Shown: positions 1-38,440 of the stretch, one piece after another
How the letters are laid out: the number at the start of each line of letters is the position of its first letter
Numbering within the stretch: position 1 is the first letter of the stretch
Virus record (IMG/VR): IMGVR_UViG_3300036045_000036
Span: 1-38,440 of that record
Strand: one strand, 5' to 3'
Length of the DNA stretch: 38,440 nucleotides
Source: a virus
Program-made: the position numbers and the translations under genes
Notes under the pieces: generated by a model
What the model saw: the letters and a program-made list of their open reading frames with translations, nothing else
The model's database searches: none
What the model was told of the DNA's origin: nothing

Positions 1-1471
1 CGCCGCCCCCACCCGACGAAGAAAACAGCCGCGTGATCTCGGCCGCCAGCGGCTTGACGACCAGCAATTGCGTGATGAGCTTGGCGATGTCCTGCCCCAG
101 CGCCTTCCACACGTCGCCGGCACGGCCGCCGGCGGTGATGAGTTCGCCGAGGGAACTGGCCATCTGCAGGCCGAGCTGCTCGGCGAGTTCGCCCTGGCGC
201 TTGAGGCCCTGCTCGACGTCGCTGTTCGAGCCGAACAGGCGGCGCTGGCCGGCGTCGTACTTCTCGATCGACAGGCCGAGGTCGAAGAAGGCGCGGTCGA
301 GCAGTTCGAGGTCTTCGGCCTGGCGGCGCGCGCCGGACTCGCCGGTGAGATCCTGCAGTCGTTCCTGGCGGCGGCGGCGCTCGCTTTCCTCCTCGGCCTC
401 GATCTCCAGCCGGGTGCGCTCGCGGTTGCGGCGGATGCGCTCGACGTCGGCGAACTCCTTGGCGTAGGCGTTGCTCGACTCCTCGGTGGCGCGCGTCTTC
501 TTGCGGGTGGCGTCGGCCCCGGCAGCGTCGGCGGCGGCCTTCTCGCGCACCGCCTGCGCCGACAGCTTCGCCTGCGTGGCCTCGGCGCCGGAGGTCTTGT
601 TGCCCTCGGCGATGGCGCGCTGACGCTGCTCGAGCGCCTGCAGCTCGGCCTTGTAGCGCTCGTAATTGCGGATGTCGCCGGTCTGCGACTGCTCCATCGA
701 ACGGATGATGGTGCGCAGCTCGGCGATGCGCTGCTCCTCGGTGCCGAGGCCGGTGAGCGCTTCGATCGTCTTGTTGATGGCCGGGATCACCCCGGCCGCC
801 AGCGTGAACTTGAAGCGCTCCCACGAGGCGCTGAGCTTGTCGGTCTCGGCCTGCAGCTTGTTGGCCGCCTCGACCGTCTCCTGCGTCAGGCCGGAGAAGC
901 GTTGCAGCCCGGCCGCGCCGCCGTTGAGCAGCGGCACCAGCCGCGCGCCGGCCTTGCCGAAGATGTCGACCGCCAGCGCCGCCTTGGCCGGGCCGTCTTC
1001 CATGCGCGCGAACGCATTGGCGAGCTGCGCCAGCACTTCGGTGGCCGGGCGCACGTTGCCGGACACGTCCCGCACGCTGACGCCGAGCGCGTTGAACAGC
1101 GCCACCTGCTGCTTGCTGCCGCTGGCCGCCTCGGACAGGTTGATGTTCAGCCGCGTCAGCGCGGTGTCGAGCGTTTCGACGCCGACGCCGGACTCGCCGG
1201 CGGCCTGGCGCAGGCCGGACAATTCCACCGCCGTGGTGCCGAGCGCCTGCGCGGCGTCGTTGAGATCGTCGATCCCGCTGACCAGCGAGCGGAGGCCCGC
1301 CACCACGGCGCCGCCGACCAGCGACGCCCACAGCCCCTGGAAGCGCAGCAGCGGTGCGCTGATGCCATCGAACGAGCGCTGCATGCCATCCACGGTGCCG
1401 GACAGGCGGCGCAGCACTTCGCTGGCGCGGTCCTGCGCGGAGAGGATGACTTCAGTGCGTTGCGTGGTCAT
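1..1471 (-). CDS. Tape measure protein, N-terminal part (runs off left edge)
   Basis: First 490 codons of a lambda gpH-like tape measure protein, which fixes tail length and leaves the tail ahead of the DNA. It begins MTTQRTEVILSAQDRASEV, typical for siphovirus tape measures, followed by a hydrophobic Gly/Ala-rich segment (about residues 45-70) and a long charged helical stretch (about 240-400) rich in Arg, Glu and Gln. The frame is open to base 1 and ends there in a Ser/Gly run. The ATG overlaps the stop of the frameshifted chaperone extension (ATGA), so translation is coupled. The rest of the gene is most likely 38194-38440. Together they give about 571 residues, which at roughly 0.15 nm per residue would mean a tail near 85 nm (inference). 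Confidence 0.9.
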   Translation of the reverse strand, partial: MTTQRTEVILSAQDRASEVLRRLSGTVDGMQRSFDGISAPLLRFQGLWASLVGGAVVAGLRSLVSGIDDLNDAAQALGTTAVELSGLRQAAGESGVGVETLDTALTRLNINLSEAASGSKQQVALFNALGVSVRDVSGNVRPATEVLAQLANAFARMEDGPAKAALAVDIFGKAGARLVPLLNGGAAGLQRFSGLTQETVEAANKLQAETDKLSASWERFKFTLAAGVIPAINKTIEALTGLGTEEQRIAELRTIIRSMEQSQTGDIRNYERYKAELQALEQRQRAIAEGNKTSGAEATQAKLSAQAVREKAAADAAGADATRKKTRATEESSNAYAKEFADVERIRRNRERTRLEIEAEEESERRRRQERLQDLTGESGARRQAEDLELLDRAFFDLGLSIEKYDAGQRRLFGSNSDVEQGLKRQGELAEQLGLQMASSLGELITAGGRAGDVWKALGQDIAKLITQLLVVKPLAAEITRLFSSSGGGG

Positions 1472-1722
1472 GGGCGTTCATTGGCGAAGTCGTCGATCTC
1501 GCCCATCAGGGCAAGCGTCAGGTCCCAGTCGTCGAGCCCGTGAATGGCGTGGTACAGCGGCAGCTGCTCACGGCGGCCGCGGCAGAAGTTCCAGCAGTGC
1601 ATGGCGCGCAGCACCGCCGGCAGCGGTTCGGGTGGCGGCGGCGGGCTGAAGTCGAGATCCTCCAGCCCGAGGATGCCGCTGGGCTGCACCCCGCGCCGCT
1701 GCGCCGCGAGGTGCGCGTTCAG
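1468..1722 (-). CDS. Tail assembly chaperone, T-type extension made by -1 frameshift
   Basis: This frame has no convincing start of its own; a GTG at 1689 exists but lacks a ribosome site. It lies in the -1 frame relative to the upstream chaperone gene and is open back to the slippery site at 1722-1728. After slippage the G-type protein would gain 84 residues beginning LNAHLAAQRRGVQ, for a fused product of about 204 residues. It contains a proline run (PPPPPEP) and ends just before the tape measure gene, overlapping its ATG. In lambda the GT fusion binds the tape measure protein during tail assembly; position, size and frame all match that arrangement. Confidence 0.82.
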   Translation of the reverse strand: MNAHLAAQRRGVQPSGILGLEDLDFSPPPPPEPLPAVLRAMHCWNFCRGRREQLPLYHAIHGLDDWDLTLALMGEIDDFANERP

Positions 1723-3223: not shown

Positions 3224-3502
3224 TTACTGCCTTTCCAGCACGAGGCGCTTTTCGAGTTCGTCTGGCGCCACCGGCTCGATCGCGCGCACGACGTAGCTGA
3301 CACCAGCGCGCGCGACCGTGGCGCCGACCGCCACCGCAGCAATGTCCGACGCGCGGCACCGCAGCGCCGGCGCCGTGCTCTGGACATCCAGCGCGGCGAT
3401 GTACCCGCCGTCGAAGATCGCCGTAACCGGCGAGCCGGCGATGGTCACCGGCTCGCCGAACTGGGCGTAGATCAGCGCCAGCGAGGGCGTGAAGTCGATC
3501 AT
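3224..3502 (-). CDS. Head-tail connector, FII-like
   Basis: 92 residues. The sequence has the small beta-barrel pattern of lambda gpFII-type head-tail joining proteins: AIFDGGY near residue 30, then PALRCRASDI, a GATV turn, and YVVRAIEPVAPDELEKRLVLE at the end. The protein would cap the connector at the tail-binding face of the filled head. Its ATG (3502) overlaps the TGA of the methyltransferase/glycosyltransferase gene (ATGA), so it is probably translationally coupled to that foreign-looking gene. A longer open frame upstream is a shadow. Confidence 0.75.
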   Translation of the reverse strand: MIDFTPSLALIYAQFGEPVTIAGSPVTAIFDGGYIAALDVQSTAPALRCRASDIAAVAVGATVARAGVSYVVRAIEPVAPDELEKRLVLERQ

Positions 3503-5046
3503 GCGGCCTTCTTCGGCAGCAGGTTGCGGCCGCGCAGGTGGTCGAGAATCAGCTCCGCGATCGGCTCCGGCCGCGCCATCGCCTGGCAGGCGCTGGCGCC
3601 TGTGACGGTATCGCGCGCGCAGAAAGCGAAGTCCTGCCCGTGCACCCGGTGGCACGGGTGGCAGGCCAGGCCATGCGGCTCGATGCTGGCGCAGTTGAGC
3701 CAGTCGCGCGTCAGGTTCTCCACGCTGCTGTGGCTGAGCGTGATCACCTTGAGCACCGGCTCGAACGCCACCGCGTTGGCGATGACGCTTTCAGTGGCCA
3801 CCACCGCATCGGCCCGCAGGGCATAGGTCATCGAGATCCGCAGCGGCCAGTCCATGCCGACGACGTGGCCGTACTCCTCGACGCCTTCCAGCCGCGGGTC
3901 GCGGATGTCGCCCAGCGCGACGGTGTGCACGCCATGCTCGGCCAGCAGTTCCATCAGCCGTTGCGTGTGCGGCCAGTACTTGACCGGGCCGCTGCCGGCC
4001 GGGTTGACCACCACCACCGGCCCGTCGAGTACCGCGCGCAGCCTCTCGGCGGTCTCGATCTCGGTGGCCGTGGGGTAGAACTTCTGCCGCGCCGGCCGGC
4101 CCTCCAGCCCCGCCCACTCGTGGACGGTGTCCAGGTAGTTGCGGTTCATCAGCTTGTGTCGCAGCTGATGCGGCAGGAAGAACCGCACCTCGTTCGGGTG
4201 CGGCAGCAGGTTGGTCTCCACGCTGCCCACCAGGTTCACCCAGCGGTCGAACTTGACGGCCTCGTGCGCGTAGAAGCGCAGCAGTTCGTCGTCCGTCAGT
4301 GTGTGATTGCGCAGGGCGATCAGGCGGTCGATGTGCGGGTCGTGGCGCAGCACTTCGGCGCCGCCCGGCACGGTGTAGACCGTGACGTGATAGCCGTCTT
4401 CCTTCAGGTGCGCGCAGACGCTGCTCGCCCACAGCGCATCGCCGTGGCCGCCCAGTCGCACCACGCCGGCGGCCTTAGCGGGCCGCTCGGCGATGTCGAA
4501 CACATGACCATGGCCGGCGAGTTCCTTGCGGAACACCAGCAGGAAGCTGTATTCGCGGCCGGCGTCGCGCGTCTGGTTCTCCAGCAGCGTCCAGTCGGGC
4601 GCGACGTCCTCCATCGCGTCGATGATGTCGTCGGGCACAAAGTCGTGCCGGTGGTCCGGGTTGGCCCCGGGCTGCCCGATGTTCGGATACAGGTCGCGGT
4701 GCGGCAGGTACAGCACCAGGTGTCCGCCCGGCCGCACCAGGCGCCACCATTCCGAAAGCGCCGCGCGCGTGTCGTCGATGTGCTCCAGCGTGTGGCTGCT
4801 GAACACGGCGTCGAACGCATCGTCGCCGAAAATCGGCATGCGCGCCGCGTCGGCGACCACGAGGTCCGGCTTCATCGGAATGCCGAACAACGCCTGCTCG
4901 CGCAGGGAATCCACGCCGATGGCGTGCGGCCACAGCTTGCTCGGGCCACAGCCGATGTCGAGCAGACTGCCCATGGTGTAGGGCAGCACGTCGAAGCGCA
5001 CTTTCGCCGCTTCGTTGCCTTGCGGGTCTTCCGCTTTCCAGACCAT
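3499..5046 (-). CDS. Bifunctional SAM methyltransferase - GT9 glycosyltransferase fusion
   Basis: 515 residues from the ATG at 5046, chosen because GGGGA lies 6 bases upstream; an in-frame GTG at 5079 lacks such a site. N-terminal half: class I SAM-dependent methyltransferase (Methyltransf_11 type) with motif I LLDIGCGPSKLW, an acidic motif II, VVADAARMP, and FDAVFSSHTLEHIDD followed by LVRPGGHLVLYLPH. C-terminal half: GT-B fold of the ADP-heptose/GT9 type, starting VVRLGGHGDALWASSVCAHL, with the donor-site loop VVNPAGSGPVKYWP and a Cys-rich end (CHPCHRVHG, then more Cys). The gene lies inside the morphogenesis operon, between capsid and head-tail connector. A virion-glycan role or surface-polysaccharide modification is inference; the substrate is unknown. 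Confidence 0.85.
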   Translation of the reverse strand: MVWKAEDPQGNEAAKVRFDVLPYTMGSLLDIGCGPSKLWPHAIGVDSLREQALFGIPMKPDLVVADAARMPIFGDDAFDAVFSSHTLEHIDDTRAALSEWWRLVRPGGHLVLYLPHRDLYPNIGQPGANPDHRHDFVPDDIIDAMEDVAPDWTLLENQTRDAGREYSFLLVFRKELAGHGHVFDIAERPAKAAGVVRLGGHGDALWASSVCAHLKEDGYHVTVYTVPGGAEVLRHDPHIDRLIALRNHTLTDDELLRFYAHEAVKFDRWVNLVGSVETNLLPHPNEVRFFLPHQLRHKLMNRNYLDTVHEWAGLEGRPARQKFYPTATEIETAERLRAVLDGPVVVVNPAGSGPVKYWPHTQRLMELLAEHGVHTVALGDIRDPRLEGVEEYGHVVGMDWPLRISMTYALRADAVVATESVIANAVAFEPVLKVITLSHSSVENLTRDWLNCASIEPHGLACHPCHRVHGQDFAFCARDTVTGASACQAMARPEPIAELILDHLRGRNLLPKKAA

Positions 5047-5131
5047 CAGTTCCCCAGGTGCTCCCGTGTGAGGTTGCACGGCAGGCGGGACGGGGGACCC
5101 GCTTTTCGGGAGCGACCCTAGCCGCGCAATG

Positions 5132-13087: not shown

Positions 13088-13396
13088 CTACACCGTGACG
13101 TCGAACTTCTGGCGGTCACTGATGCCCTGGGCACAGGCGTCCGCGTAGTTGAAGATGCATCGCCATTCGGCGCCGCGCTCGTGCAGTGGAACGAAGGTAT
13201 GCCAGCGCGGCGCCGGAATCAGCAAGAAGTCGCCGCGATCAAGCGTGACACTGCCGGCGCTGCCGTCAGGGTCGCGCCAGTCGATGCGAACTGGGCCGCG
13301 CGTAATGACAGTAAGGTGATCGACCCAGTGTTGATGACCGTCGAACTGACTCCCGAAGTCAGCCACGATTTGCCTGACGCTCCAGTTTTCGGTCAT
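13088..13396 (-). CDS. Small cupin-fold protein
   Basis: 102 residues from the ATG at 13396, which overlaps the upstream stop (ATGA); a longer frame to 13459 has no ribosome site. It shows both cupin motifs: FDGHQHWVDHLTVITRG (H-x-H, metal-binding half one) and GDFLLIPAPRWHTFVPL (half two with the expected His). This is a single-domain cupin with a probable metal site. Cupins bind or modify small molecules and sugars, or act as plain scaffolds, so no substrate can be named. Its place inside a virion-surface cassette, between a beta-propeller and an adhesin-like gene, is unusual. Confidence 0.72.
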   Translation of the reverse strand: MTENWSVRQIVADFGSQFDGHQHWVDHLTVITRGPVRIDWRDPDGSAGSVTLDRGDFLLIPAPRWHTFVPLHERGAEWRCIFNYADACAQGISDRQKFDVTV

Positions 13397-14538
13397 GGTT
13401 TGTAGAGCCACGCGCTGATGTCGTTGCCGAAATAGTAGGGCGTCGAACCGAGCACCCACACGACGCCATAATCGTCGATCGGCACGACAATGAATGGCTT
13501 GCGATGGTTGCTGGTGTTAAGCGGCGCCGGCATCACCCCTAGATCCGTCCACACGCCTGCATCGCTGCAGCGGTAGTGCCTTCCGTTATTTGCGAAGTAC
13601 AGCCAGCCGCTTCCAGATGGGTCTTTGCACAGGTGCGAGTCGTAGGTCGTGTTGAACGAAGACGGCGGCGTGCCGGTCAAGGTCGCGGCAGGCGTGCCGG
13701 TGGTGTTGATGATGCACGCGGCCGTATCCGCTCGACCGCACAAGACGGCGCCGTCGCCCCCAAGGGCGCGCGGGTTGAAACTCATCGGCAGCGACGATCC
13801 GGTCGCGCTGCCAAGGTTGCCGCCAGTGGCCAGCGTTGTCCATGTTCCGGGCGTGGTCAGATCCATCTGCCACAGCACCATCTGCGTGCCATTACTGCCA
13901 AAGCACCACATGGAGCCGACGGCGCCGCGATTGACAATGTCCAATGCCCCGGTGCGCAGCGACGAGGCTTGCGGCGCTGACGCGACGCCGTCAATCCACG
14001 CGCCGGTGTCGAGGTCGTATGCAAGAATGAGGTTTTCGCTGAATTTCTGCTTGTAGAATCGACGCCCTGCGACATCTATGCAGAGGCTGTCGTATAAGTG
14101 GACGATGCCGTTGGTGTTGCTTTCGTTCGGCGACTGAAAACCACGACTGACCGTCCACTTGCCGGCATTAAGGCCGGTTTCGTGATAGATCGGCTGTGTG
14201 TTCTTCAGGTATCCGCCGGGGCCATTAAATCCAGCTCCCGTTGAGGCCCACATCACCTTCTTGGTCGTGGGGTCGTAGCAGCCTTTCGCGCCCCAGTCGA
14301 TCGCCGTGTGCGCGGCGCCCGCGTTGTCTTCCGGCGGCTGTGTGCCATCGGATGGCGTCGGATACTTCCACCCGCCGACCTGCGTGGCTGCAGCACGATC
14401 CGCCGATAATGTTGCGGCGTGGCCATAGAACTCGGTCCAGCCGCTGCCCGCAGACTGGGCCTTCTGCTGAAGGACAGAATTTGTGACCGCAATGGTGACG
14501 GCAGTGCTGACCGCCCTGCGTGGCGCCACGTAGCGCAT
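13393..14538 (-). CDS. Beta-propeller-like virion protein
   Basis: 381 residues, without recognisable repeats of the alanine type. The sequence shows kelch/beta-propeller-like units: hydrophobic strand pairs with Trp near turns (CYDPTTKKVMWASTG, LNAGKWTVSRGF, LILAYDLDTGAWIDG, MVLWQMDLTTPGTW, PSGSGWLYFANNG, YRCSDAGVWTDLG, YGVVWVLGSTPYYFG). Six or seven blades are plausible. Galactose-oxidase-like folds on virions often bind host glycans. Its stop overlaps the cupin start and it starts one base past the end of the large lyase-like gene. The call is by pattern only. Confidence 0.62.
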   Translation of the reverse strand: MRYVAPRRAVSTAVTIAVTNSVLQQKAQSAGSGWTEFYGHAATLSADRAAATQVGGWKYPTPSDGTQPPEDNAGAAHTAIDWGAKGCYDPTTKKVMWASTGAGFNGPGGYLKNTQPIYHETGLNAGKWTVSRGFQSPNESNTNGIVHLYDSLCIDVAGRRFYKQKFSENLILAYDLDTGAWIDGVASAPQASSLRTGALDIVNRGAVGSMWCFGSNGTQMVLWQMDLTTPGTWTTLATGGNLGSATGSSLPMSFNPRALGGDGAVLCGRADTAACIINTTGTPAATLTGTPPSSFNTTYDSHLCKDPSGSGWLYFANNGRHYRCSDAGVWTDLGVMPAPLNTSNHRKPFIVVPIDDYGVVWVLGSTPYYFGNDISAWLYKP

Positions 14539-17040
14539 TTACTTGTTCCTCGGCCAGCGGTTGAAGCGCGGCGCCGTGCGAAATCCTGTCCGCCATGCGG
14601 CGAAGTCGCTTATGCCGCCGTTCGTGATGACCTTATCCCACGCGGAATCGGAGCCCGGCACGTCGCGCTCGATGGCGGCGCAAAGTGCAGCCCACATCTG
14701 CGCGGGGTAAGACGTACCTGCACTCACCGCTGCGGCAGAGTCGGCCGAAACACCAGACCAATCGGTCGGGGTGCCAGTTATCCACGAACCGGACGCAGGC
14801 GGCAGCGTGCCGGTCATATCCGAGCGCGTCATCGCGCCCCAGTCGCCCGATCCCATATTGATCGTGCCGCCAGTGATGTCTCCAATCGTCAGTGTGTACG
14901 GGTGATACCGCCACTCGCCGCCGGTGGCCTCATTTATGCGGCGCACCACATAGGCGCAGGCTTTGTCTGTCATGGCAGACCAGGCCGCGCCATCGGCGTC
15001 GCGCAGCACCTTGGCCGCGTCCACGAAGTTCCACGCCACCAGGCAGAAGTGCTGCATCCACGGCGCGTGCTGGCAGCGGGCCCGGCCATCGTGGTCGGCG
15101 TTGCTGGTATTGGCTGTCAGACCCCACACCACCGCGAGCGAGTTGTAGGGAGCATCGAGAAATGCGTTATTGACAGCGATGTTCGTTGCCAATGCCGTTC
15201 GATAGTCTGCCTTGCGTGTCGCGTCGGCGTCTGGAGTCAACAGAATCGTGGAGGCATAGGCCCTGGCACGCCAGGCGCGCGACCGCACCTGGTCGAACGA
15301 GTGGCTACCATCGGTGCTGCCAAAGTTGCTGTGGTGCCAGGCAAATTCCTTTTGAGCCATGTCGATAAAGCACGGGCTCGGCCGACACAGGAACGGCACC
15401 AGCGCAACGGCCGGAATGTGCGAGGCATCATTGCTGTTCGGCCCATAGCGGGGTTCGGTCGTCAGTGCAGGCCAGTTGCCGTTGGTGGTGTTCTTGCCTA
15501 AAACCTGAGCGCGCGTCGGAGGTGTTCCGTCCGCATGTCTGAAATGCCAGTTAAGCGACAGGGCCGCCAGCCCGGTCGCCAGAACCGCGCGGCGAGCGTA
15601 AAGATTCCCGCTCGCCAAGTAATCCGACTGGCATTCAGTCCATGGGCCAATTTCTTCGTCATCGCCAGTGCCATCCATCGCCGGCGCGCGCAGGCGGCAC
15701 GTGGCCCACGGCACATACGTGTCCCATGTCTCAGCATACTTGGTGGCGAGGTTCTCTGTTGATGCCTCTGCCGGCTGATAAAACAGCGGCGCGCCTTGCA
15801 AATACGCGATGTCGTGCGTCACCTCCATGCCCGGATCCAGACCGACCCAGGTGGAGCAGTACCATGCGCGAAATGGCTCGTGCCCGCCGGTGTACTTGAC
15901 CGCGCTGTAGCCTTCATCGTAGCGGCGACAGTTTGGAATGTCTGATCCTGCGCCAGGACTACTGACCGTTGCGATGGTGGCGCCGTTGACCTTCACGGTG
16001 GCGCCGGTGTAGGTCTGCGTGCTCGGCGCCGTCACCGTGGCCGCGTTGGCGTTGACTTCGCCGTTTTCTATCACGACCTCAACGAACGCGCGATCGCTGA
16101 CGCCGGCCTTAAAGGCGTGGATGTCGATGATCGCCTTCATCGTGCCGAGCCCGCAGCCGAGCACGTAGCGGCAGCAGATGGTGGCGCTGTTGGCCCACCA
16201 GGTGCGCGCCGGCGAAGTGAAGTCGCTGAGCGTCTGATCGCCGCCGCCGAAGTTGACGACGATGTCACTGACGATGGCGTCGATGCGGCTGGCGGTCAGC
16301 GCCGTGCCGCTTGGCGCGCCTGGCCGCAACCGGATGGCCTTGGTCACCGCGTTGGTGACGGCGGTTTCGCCGGCCACGACCATCACCTGTGCGCTGCCGT
16401 CCGGCCAGGTGCTGAGCACACTGCTGCGCAGGTTGGCGTCGTCTGGACTGACGAGGATCTGGCCGCTCGGCACCGCCCCTTCGACCGGATAGACCGTGGC
16501 GTGGTAAGGCAAGGTCGCGGTGACGGTCGGGTGCAGCGTGAGGGTCGGCAGTGCGCCCGGTTCAAAGTACGTGAAGCGGATGGAGTTGGCCGATGTCACC
16601 GCTGACCCACCATCGGACAGCACGCCGCCTTCGCTGAGCGTGATGAGCGTGGGCAGCGCAGTATTCAGCGGGTCCACGCCATACACGCCGCCGGCGGTAT
16701 AGCCAGCCGGGCCCGTGGCCGCCACATTGAAAGTCTCGCCGCCGCCCTGGACGAACGTGATGACCGGCGCCACGGCCCAGCCAAGCGAGGCGGCCGACGT
16801 TGAACCAGCCACCGCCGCCCCCTGCATGCGAATGCCGCGCAGCAGCGCGGCCGTGGCCTGCGCGCTAGCGCTGGCGGCGCCGCCGAGGTTGACCCCGCGC
16901 AGCAGCGCCGCGGCGGCCTGCGCGCTGGCGAGCGCGCTGCCGGCGAGCGGCACGGCGGCGCCCTGGCCGATGACACCGCTGATGGACATCAGCGCGCTCA
17001 GCCGCAGCCGCGGCGGGGCGCGCAGCTTGAAGTCGGACAT
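14539..17040 (-). CDS. Large putative polysaccharide lyase / depolymerase with N-terminal alanine repeats
   Basis: 833 residues. Residues 1-85: a short basic start, then three alanine repeats (VPLAGSALASAQAAAALLRG, VNLGGAASASAQATAALLRG, IRMQGAAVAGSTSAASLG). Residues about 170-330 resemble the RIFT-barrel domain of YetA-like exo-rhamnogalacturonan lyases: PVEGAVPSGQILV, then SVLSTWPDGSAQVMVVAG (the WPDGS motif). The C-terminal 400 residues look helical and Trp/His-rich, consistent with an alpha/alpha toroid (FAWHHSNFGSTDGSHSFDQ, CQHAPWMQHFCLVAWNFVDAAK). An enzyme or binding protein for host surface glycans is the best inference. The body is less GC-rich than the N-terminal repeats, suggesting acquisition of the cargo part. 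Confidence 0.6.
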   Translation of the reverse strand: MSDFKLRAPPRLRLSALMSISGVIGQGAAVPLAGSALASAQAAAALLRGVNLGGAASASAQATAALLRGIRMQGAAVAGSTSAASLGWAVAPVITFVQGGGETFNVAATGPAGYTAGGVYGVDPLNTALPTLITLSEGGVLSDGGSAVTSANSIRFTYFEPGALPTLTLHPTVTATLPYHATVYPVEGAVPSGQILVSPDDANLRSSVLSTWPDGSAQVMVVAGETAVTNAVTKAIRLRPGAPSGTALTASRIDAIVSDIVVNFGGGDQTLSDFTSPARTWWANSATICCRYVLGCGLGTMKAIIDIHAFKAGVSDRAFVEVVIENGEVNANAATVTAPSTQTYTGATVKVNGATIATVSSPGAGSDIPNCRRYDEGYSAVKYTGGHEPFRAWYCSTWVGLDPGMEVTHDIAYLQGAPLFYQPAEASTENLATKYAETWDTYVPWATCRLRAPAMDGTGDDEEIGPWTECQSDYLASGNLYARRAVLATGLAALSLNWHFRHADGTPPTRAQVLGKNTTNGNWPALTTEPRYGPNSNDASHIPAVALVPFLCRPSPCFIDMAQKEFAWHHSNFGSTDGSHSFDQVRSRAWRARAYASTILLTPDADATRKADYRTALATNIAVNNAFLDAPYNSLAVVWGLTANTSNADHDGRARCQHAPWMQHFCLVAWNFVDAAKVLRDADGAAWSAMTDKACAYVVRRINEATGGEWRYHPYTLTIGDITGGTINMGSGDWGAMTRSDMTGTLPPASGSWITGTPTDWSGVSADSAAAVSAGTSYPAQMWAALCAAIERDVPGSDSAWDKVITNGGISDFAAWRTGFRTAPRFNRWPRNK

Positions 17041-31689: not shown

Positions 31690-31937
31690 GGCGCCGCCTC
31701 CCGCGTGGCCCACTTCGACAGGGCGCGCTGGCGCGCGGCGCATTCACCGTACATCGCCGTCAGCTCCGAAAACGCGCTCACCAGTTCGCCCAGGTCGCTG
31801 GCCGTCAGCCGCGGGATCGGCGGGCACGGCTGGGTCAGGCTGGCCGGCGGCGGCGTTCGCGGCGTCGATGGCGGCATTGAGGAGCACGCGCCCAGGCTCA
31901 GGCAGAGGGCAGCGATACTCGATGCGGGTGGTCTCAC
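31686..31937 (-). CDS. Rz1-like outer-membrane spanin lipoprotein
   Basis: 83 residues from a GTG at 31937. Signal peptide RPPASSIAALCLSLGAC with a lipobox Leu-Gly-Ala-Cys, then a Pro-rich stretch (SSMPPSTPRTPPPASLTQPC) and a helix (DLGELVSAFSELTAMYGEC). This is the o-spanin form. Most of it lies in another frame inside the Rz gene and extends about 58 bases past the Rz stop, the typical overlapping Rz/Rz1 architecture. It spans the periplasm with Rz to fuse the membranes in the last lysis step. Confidence 0.78.
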   Translation of the reverse strand: MRPPASSIAALCLSLGACSSMPPSTPRTPPPASLTQPCPPIPRLTASDLGELVSAFSELTAMYGECAARQRALSKWATREAAP

Positions 31938-32190
31938 GTTGCACCTCGACGCGATTGACAGTGGTGATGCGGCGCAGCTGCGCGGCAACCTGCTCGTAGG
32001 CGGCCGAGACGCCCTGCGTGAAGGATTCATCGACGCGCCGCTCGGCCTCGGCAGCGCGCAGGCGATCCGCCTCGGCCGCCTGGCAGGCATTGGCCGCCAC
32101 CTTGTAGCCGCCGACAAAGGCGGCGCCGAGTACGAAGGCGACGGCGATGAGCCGCACCGCCATGCCGCTGAACGCGAAGGCGGGGAACAT
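31744..32190 (-). CDS. Rz-like inner-membrane spanin
   Basis: 148 residues. N-terminal membrane anchor (MAVRLIAVAFVLGAAFVGGYK), then a long charged helix (CQAAEADRLRAAEAERRVDE ... AYEQVAAQLRRITTVNRVEVQRE) ending in YRCPLPEPGRVLLNAAIDAAN, the usual Rz end motif. An Ala/Pro/Gly-rich tail follows. Its ATG at 32190 overlaps the last stop of the endolysin frame; a GTG one codon earlier is also in frame. It carries the nested Rz1 gene. It is the i-spanin of the lysis cassette. Confidence 0.82.
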   Translation of the reverse strand: MFPAFAFSGMAVRLIAVAFVLGAAFVGGYKVAANACQAAEADRLRAAEAERRVDESFTQGVSAAYEQVAAQLRRITTVNRVEVQRETTRIEYRCPLPEPGRVLLNAAIDAANAAAGQPDPAVPADPAADGQRPGRTGERVFGADGDVR

Positions 32191-32573
32191 CACGTGTACC
32201 GGCCGCCGCGCGGCAGTTCGAAGTGCGGGCCATCGCGGAAGGTGAGCCAGTCGCCGCCCCAGATGATCTGCACGCCGAGGTCGGCGGCGGCCATCTTCAT
32301 CGCCTTGGCCAGGTGCTCGTAGAGCGGCCAGTCCTATCGGACTTCGCCGTGCAGGGTCACGGCGAGGTCGACGGCGTGCCCGGTCAGGTGCCGGCTGTTA
32401 TGGGTGCGGCTGGCGCCCACCCGCACCAGTTGCGCCTGTCGCTCGGCACTGCGCAGCCCCTCGGTGACGATGAATCCGAGATCGGCCGGCATGAAGTCAT
32501 GCGCGCGGCGCACCACGGCGACCAGGTCTTCGTGGACGCCGTGCAGGCGCAGCAGGTCGCGCGCGGAGAGCAT
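32190..32573 (-). pseudogene. M15 endolysin (L-Ala-D-Glu / D-Ala peptidase) interrupted by in-frame TAG
   Basis: A 127-codon frame of normal length for small M15C peptidases, with an amber codon at codon 80 (bases 32334-32336). Before the stop: GFIVTEGLRSAERQAQLV and SRHLTGHAVDLAV, which supply zinc ligands His62 and Asp69. After it: DWPLYEHLAKAMK, IIWGGDWLTF (candidate catalytic Asp108) and DGPHFEL (third ligand His117). Relatives usually read R-Y-D-W-P here, so TAC or TAT to TAG is a single-base change. The truncated 79-residue product lacks the catalytic Asp and third ligand and should be inactive. Read-through, a defective genome, or a sequence error are all possible. Confidence 0.82.
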
Positions 32574-32785
32574 CAGGCGCCATCCTTGCGCTCGGGGAAC
32601 AGCGCGCCGATCACGCCGCTGGCCGCCAGCCCGGTCAGCACGAAGGCTTCCGTGTGCTCCGGCTTCAGACTGGCGCCGAGCACGCTGGCGATCAGCGCCA
32701 GGCCGCGCCAGGTGCTGCCTTCCTGCGCGCGCGCGAGCAGGTAGCGGCCGAGGGCATTGAGCTTGCGACGCAGCGAGGCTCTCAT
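32573..32785 (-). CDS. Holin-like two-TM protein
   Basis: 70 residues. A basic N-terminus (MRASLRRKLNALGRYLLARAQ) precedes two hydrophobic segments, WRGLALIASVLGASL and AFVLTGLAASGVIGAL, joined by KPEHTE; the end is charged (FPERKDGA). Size, topology and position directly before the endolysin fit a small class II-type holin that times lysis. The ATG overlaps the upstream stop and its own stop overlaps the endolysin ATG. Confidence 0.78.
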   Translation of the reverse strand: MRASLRRKLNALGRYLLARAQEGSTWRGLALIASVLGASLKPEHTEAFVLTGLAASGVIGALFPERKDGA

Positions 32786-36564: not shown

Positions 36565-36996
36565 CTACACCCGCCACGCCGCCCGGGCAGCGGTCATCGG
36601 CACGAAAGCGAGCCCGGAAGCGCCGGGCCCGCAGGCTTCGGCGCCCACGCACACGGCCAGGCTCTCGCGGCCGTTGATCTCCACCAGCACCACGTCGCCG
36701 CGCTGGGCATAGGCCACGTCGCAGGCGGCGAGCTGGTCCCAGTCCTGCACCAGCTGGCCCAGCCCGCTGCCCTGCATGAACTCCAGCGCGCCGCGCGCGT
36801 CGGTGTAAGCGAGCCGTTCGGCCAGTGCGTCGGTGGCTGGATCCAGGTCTTCGCGCGCCAGCTGCACCCAGCCGAGCGCGAACCGCGCGCAGTCGTGCTG
36901 GCCCCAGGTGAACGGCGTGTCGCGGTGCCGCTCCACGTACACCGCAAGCAGCAGCTGCCAGTCGGGCCGGCGCAGGCCGGAACCGTTGAGTTTCAT
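36565..36996 (-). CDS. NlpC/P60-like tail assembly protein, gpK-like (DUF6950 type)
   Basis: 143 residues from the ATG at 36996, 8 bases after the previous stop; a GTG at 37035 is the alternative. The signature RRPDWQLLLAVYVERHRDTPFTWG...DCARFALGW has the conserved W-G-x-x-D-C with candidate catalytic Cys36, then a Tyr-Ala-Arg stretch and GDVVLVEINGRESLAVCVG, the second half of the papain-like fold. Proteins of this slot sit between L- and J-like genes. lambda K shares the NlpC/P60 fold and cuts peptidoglycan or processes the tail tip. The catalytic His is not obvious, so activity is uncertain. Confidence 0.78.
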   Translation of the reverse strand: MKLNGSGLRRPDWQLLLAVYVERHRDTPFTWGQHDCARFALGWVQLAREDLDPATDALAERLAYTDARGALEFMQGSGLGQLVQDWDQLAACDVAYAQRGDVVLVEINGRESLAVCVGAEACGPGASGLAFVPMTAARAAWRV

Positions 36997-38197: not shown

Positions 38198-38440
38198 CCT
38201 GCGAGCACCCCACTGCCGCCGCGCGCGACGTTGTCCCAGCTCTGCGCCAGGCCGGCGCGCACGCCGGTTTCGACGTAGCTGGAGATGCGCGCACGGTCGA
38301 CCGCGCCGTCGATGTAGTTGGTGATGAACACCTGCCCGCCGCCCGCCGCGGCGCCGGGCGCGCCGGCGCCACCGGACGCGCCGCCGCCCGTGAAGAAGCC
38401 GCTCACCGCGCCGCCGATCTGCTTGAAGATGTCGCCAAAC
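38194..38440 (-). CDS. Tape measure protein, C-terminal part (enters from right edge)
   Basis: 81 codons from the edge: FGDIFKQIGGAVSGFFTGGG..., a Gly/Ala-rich run, then FITNYIDGAVDRARISSYVETGVRAGLAQSWDN and a short end. An amphipathic helix like AVSGFFTGG followed by a small conserved C-terminal segment is usual for lambda-like tape measures. It is followed by the M-like gene with an ATGA overlap, exactly where the tape measure should end. The N-terminal part is at 1-1471. The GTG at 38406 that could start this frame is not a plausible gene start. Confidence 0.85.
   Translation of the reverse strand, partial: FGDIFKQIGGAVSGFFTGGGASGGAGAPGAAAGGGQVFITNYIDGAVDRARISSYVETGVRAGLAQSWDNVARGGSGVLAG

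Follow-up and report, generated by a model that had tools for sequence, protein, structure and literature searches.

The question raised by this locus is why an apparently well-preserved phage endolysin gene contains an in-frame amber codon, and whether the interruption belongs to the phage or to the record from which it is known. The window, that is, the whole stretch of DNA analysed (38,440 nucleotides), carries the gene on its minus strand, with the ATG at 32573 abutting the end of a small gene in the holin position and a same-frame TGA at 32192-32190. The elements of the region are as follows.

32190..32573 (-): M15_4 / LAS-type endolysin gene, read-through frame of 127 codons plus TGA, interrupted by TAG
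32334..32336 (-): the in-frame TAG, codon 80 of 127
32337..32573 (-): open part 5' of the TAG, 79 codons, holding the zinc ligands H62 and D69
32193..32333 (-): the 47 codons 3' of the TAG, holding W109, the catalytic D114 and the zinc ligand H117
32190..32193 (-): GTGA overlap between the endolysin-frame TGA and the GTG start of the Rz-like gene, read from the sequence
31744..32193 (-): Rz-like spanin gene, 149 aa (phrog_1152, E 9e-10)
32573..32785 (-): small protein of 70 aa in the holin position

With a small holin-like gene on one side and an Rz-like spanin gene on the other, the endolysin gene lies in a lysis cassette that is arranged like a working lysis module.

Reading through the TAG would give an M15 enzyme, as a first-pass annotation of this DNA had proposed: it consists of one peptidase domain (Pfam Peptidase_M15_4, E 7.5e-12) and matches the PHROG endolysin family phrog_465 (E 7.7e-51). 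Its predicted fold is confident (mean pLDDT 94.8) and finds its best solved match in ChiX (Foldseek E 3.2e-15, rmsd 1.1, TM 0.88), which is also the top sequence match (phmmer 3.8e-32). The SxHxxxxAxD zinc motif (H62, D69), invariant across an alignment of 36 sequences, is present, and both D114 (catalytic) and H117 (zinc) are encoded 3' of the TAG. The read-through form is therefore predicted to be a canonical single-domain L-Ala-D-Glu endopeptidase endolysin, and the confident fold and the match to ChiX argue that the open frame beyond the TAG is no chance ORF. The same search with the 79-residue product as written gave no Pfam match.

The amber codon does lie 5' of the catalytic Asp and the third zinc ligand, as had been claimed: H62 and D69 precede it, whereas W109, D114, G115, P116 and H117, invariant in the 36-sequence alignment and all kept, follow it. 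In the predicted model of the read-through form, residue 80 is in the link from strand 77-79 to helix 82-99. The product that ends at residue 79 has neither the complete zinc site nor the catalytic Asp, and there are strong grounds for predicting that it should be inactive, because two zinc ligands are kept but the rest of the active site is lost.

The 3' part of the gene shows no relaxation. The M15 frame stays open for 47 codons past the TAG, with a family match to the end, and every column in this part that is invariant in the 36-sequence alignment is kept (A96, G106, W109, F112, D114, G115, P116, H117, F118, and L120), as are the nearly invariant ones. The description of this end as perfectly conserved holds for DGPHFEL; the last residues are variable and do not fit it. 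Identity to homologues averages 0.65 before the TAG vs 0.69 after it (n = 103), and GC3 is 0.87 vs 0.96. The change appears to be recent because relaxation 3' of the TAG is absent, identity being no lower there and the conserved columns being kept; the comparison of identities agrees with the earlier suggestion that an intact downstream half points to a recent change, read-through or a base error. If neutral changes are assumed to fall at random, more than about eight substitutions in the 141 bases would probably hit a conserved column; this estimate, made by hand, gives a rough bound of about 6% on divergence since the TAG arose, and no date.

The residue lost at codon 80 is most readily identified from the family. 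Trp occupies this column in 104 of 109 homologues, always as TGG, the others having Phe (three), Ala (one), and Pro (one, in the truncated copy L157), and the codon aligns with Trp86 of ChiX in an alignment that pairs D69 with Asp75. TGG and TAG are separated by a single transition. The first-pass annotation had looked for TAC or TAT here; Tyr as the lost residue was rejected, since it is found in none of the 109 homologues. On the minus strand, window 32328-32341 can form a hairpin with a perfect 5-bp stem (AGTCC-GATA-GGACT), and most of the codon lies in its GATA loop; the stem is largely dictated by the family codons GTC CGN TGG GAC. A loop cytosine of the opposite strand may be liable to deamination.

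The same interruption was sought in relatives. None of 80 viral homologues retrieved by protein query has a stop within the endolysin gene. A scan of viral contigs for the surrounding motif gave a single match with TAG (L161, a non-M15 sequence, out of frame and with many stops) and no match with TGA, vs at least 41 in-frame M15 genes with TGG among the 79 matches listed. No homologue was found that carries a stop at codon 80 with the rest of the gene intact. In a Rubritepida MAG (L159, 5935-6207), a TGA occupies the codon-80 Trp column; this is a decayed bacterial copy, because an internal deletion of about 40 residues accompanies the stop. In Rubritepida flocculans (L157, 6001-6500) an M15 endolysin is cut after ...IRWD, two codons past the same column, and is followed by an IS110-type transposase-like frame, recognised by eye and apparently inserted. 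These two cases show that the M15 endolysin gene gets broken in bacterial genomes, and a stop in the column shared by L159 and this phage is unsurprising, as a single base change turns a Trp codon into a stop.

A second copy of the phage was found neither by megablast of window 14542-38440 against phages and plasmids nor by an exact 27-mer scan of viral contigs, searches in which records close to this window may be missing. The partial-contig records L082 and L100, closer relatives by terminase and tail fibre, hold no match to this endolysin, PHROGs and Pfam scans of the main genes of the window returned no other lysis enzyme that might replace it, and a search by terminase of 399 genomes from the order of a Burkholderiales MAG gave no host or prophage match, a blank that says nothing about the host.

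The type of DNA represented by the record bears on how the TAG is read, and two further features are relevant.

2..1477 (-): N-terminal part of the tape-measure gene, the C-terminal part of which lies at 38198-38439 and matches L105
28458..28496 (+): attP-like core, present once, next to the integrase gene and formed by the 5' half of a tRNA-Leu(CAA)

The record is a near-complete, circularly permuted genome of a temperate phage, the permutation being indicated because the tape-measure gene is split across both record ends. The attP-like core is far from these ends, and neither host flanks nor att ends occur in the record, which indicates an origin in excised, replicating or packaged DNA and not in an old prophage scar. 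At the joint between window 1 and 38440 the tape-measure frame is one base short modulo three; a few bases of a Gly-rich stretch are missing or duplicated there, a small gap. The attP-like core corresponds to the tRNA-Leu(CAA) 5' half up to the anticodon loop, not the usual 3' half, and the same is seen in L105.

Other features of the window were noted in passing. An Rfam int-alpA RNA (RF02996, 55.7 bits, gathering threshold 35.8) at 5063-5128 (-) has the major head protein gene on one side and a methyltransferase-domain gene on the other, which is unusual if the family is named for the genes it normally adjoins. The gene at 3499-5079, situated between those for the major head protein and the tail, encodes 526 aa, with a methyltransferase domain at the N-terminus. 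Inside the head-gene operon, window 13396-17040 holds two genes of partly lower GC (~0.62) for proteins of 381 and 833 aa; neither has a PHROG, Pfam or PADLOC match, and similarity to L082 is confined to residues 1-86 of the larger protein.

Judged by tail fibre and integrase, L105 and L106 (integrase 80–84%) are the nearest phages; in the lysis slot they have, as judged by eye, a lysozyme-like gene instead of M15. L104 has holin and Rz types as here, with a different M15-like enzyme, which is adjoined by a homologue of the 70-aa protein. The M15 gene probably entered by module exchange, because the nearest phages carry other endolysins in the lysis slot; among these phages there is no close allele for comparison.

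The reading we favour, and to which we give an even chance, is a real, recent and isolated nonsense substitution at codon 80 (TGG to TAG). Translation would then end at residue 79, before the long helix 82-99, and the product, devoid of the catalytic Asp and one zinc ligand, would not cut peptidoglycan. On its own, a phage with the TAG allele could not lyse a normal host; it would persist as a lysogen, inside cells that do not lyse, by complementation from a co-infecting phage or in a host that suppresses the codon. The in-frame TAG with an open frame beyond it, the Trp column one transition away, the unrelaxed downstream half, the occurrence of a single lesion among the 27 genes checked and the precedents of L159 and L157 are all consistent with this reading. 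Against it, a near-complete circular genome points to excised or packaged DNA, and among released particles an allele that abolishes lysis should be at a disadvantage. The circular form cuts both ways: free phages should need their endolysin, and this speaks for an error or a minority allele, but a lysis-defective phage would also build up excised DNA in cells that stay unlysed.

A somewhat less probable alternative is that the endolysin of the population is intact and that the TAG is an error of the consensus or the assembly, or comes from a minor strain variant that was collapsed into the contig. That the TAG is the sole lesion among the 27 checked genes suits this explanation as well, as does the expectation that a free phage form keeps its endolysin; the codon, moreover, lies mostly within the hairpin loop described above, a local structure of a kind that can trouble sequencing, and the record is a virus-collection contig known from its consensus sequence alone. 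Single-base substitution errors are, however, rare in well-covered assemblies, a G-to-A transition is also common as a real mutation, and the record has no signs of low quality besides the contig junction.

Improbable, by comparison with the nonsense substitution, is a functional amber, by which a suppressing or leaky host, or regulated read-through, would yield a little full-length endolysin and set the level or timing of lysis. The fully conserved downstream half would agree with such a role, and for some phages work cited in PMC11210395 proposes that stop recoding acts in the lytic genes. The codon usage of the window argues otherwise. TAG terminates 7 of the 27 genes checked, including those for the portal, the minor tail protein, and the CI-like repressor and the gene at 36565, and no internal stops were found in these 27. 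The TAGs of the portal, minor tail and 36565 genes are real ends because their alignments with relatives run through the last residue before the codon. Thirteen conserved genes contain 100 TGG codons and no in-frame TAG, and ARAGORN found no tRNA gene, hence no suppressor tRNA, in the window. The M15 motif, moreover, was met in viral contigs with TGG and never, within an M15 gene, with TAG or TGA, and no second phage with the trait was found. The more specific proposal that the amber is kept as a gate, with full-length enzyme made only in amber-suppressing or read-through-prone hosts or states so that lysis would be tied to host translation, is more doubtful still. Neither suppressed nor gated read-through has positive support.

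It is very unlikely that the endolysin is made in two pieces, with a restart at an ATG shortly after the TAG and association of the C-terminal piece with the N-terminal one. ATGs do occur 12 and 14 codons after the TAG, the second with AAGG 8 bases 5' of it, the break would come after strand 77-79 of the model and ahead of helix 82-99, and a restart would preserve coupling to the Rz-like gene; it would, however, delete W82 and P83, which are nearly invariant, and the first half of the helix, and no relative is split in this way. Global reassignment of TAG (code 15-like), in whose favour a single in-frame TAG in a conserved late gene may be cited, is ruled out for practical purposes by the codon's normal use as terminator of the portal, minor tail, CI-like and other genes, its absence in frame from the 13 other genes and the lack of a tRNA, in agreement with the first-pass annotation, which had judged global recoding unlikely.

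The likeliest reading of the locus as a whole is one interrupted copy of a well-known enzyme, with little consequence; it serves as a reminder that a single-base stop in a metagenome phage contig should be backed by reads. If the TAG is real and common in free particles, it raises the question of how a phage that lacks an endolysin of its own leaves the cell, to which complementation or host suppression could be the answer.

Several known systems resemble this one in part. The phages that use code 15 (TAG to Gln; crAss-like phages and others) share with it an in-frame TAG in a late lysis gene, but they have many in-frame TAGs and would be expected to avoid TAG as a terminator, and about half of TAG-recoded phages encode a Sup-CTA tRNA (PMC11210395), whereas here there is one in-frame TAG, no tRNA and TAG-terminated genes. 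ChiX of Serratia marcescens (PDB 5OPZ), a LAS-family L-Ala-D-Glu endopeptidase, binds zinc through His68, Asp75, and His123 and is inactive as the D120A variant (PMC5778951); its zinc ligands and catalytic Asp align with those of the endolysin, although ChiX belongs to a secretion operon while the phage gene is TAG-interrupted and lies in a lysis cassette. EndoRB49 has the zinc ligands H62, D69, and H117, the catalytic Asp D114 and an essential Trp, W109 (PMC10487532), and all five residue numbers are identical to those of the read-through endolysin. EndoRB49 and EndoT5 (M15_C phage endolysins) and LysECD7 have the same fold and motif, with fold-alignment identities to the read-through form of 48% (RB49), 45% (LysECD7), and 28% (T5), but their genes are intact. 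The closest sequences are the endolysins of the IMG/VR contigs L003 and L002 (71 and 66% identity, respectively), the second of which is also adjoined by an Rz-type gene, as judged by eye; both are uninterrupted, with Trp in the column that here holds the TAG.
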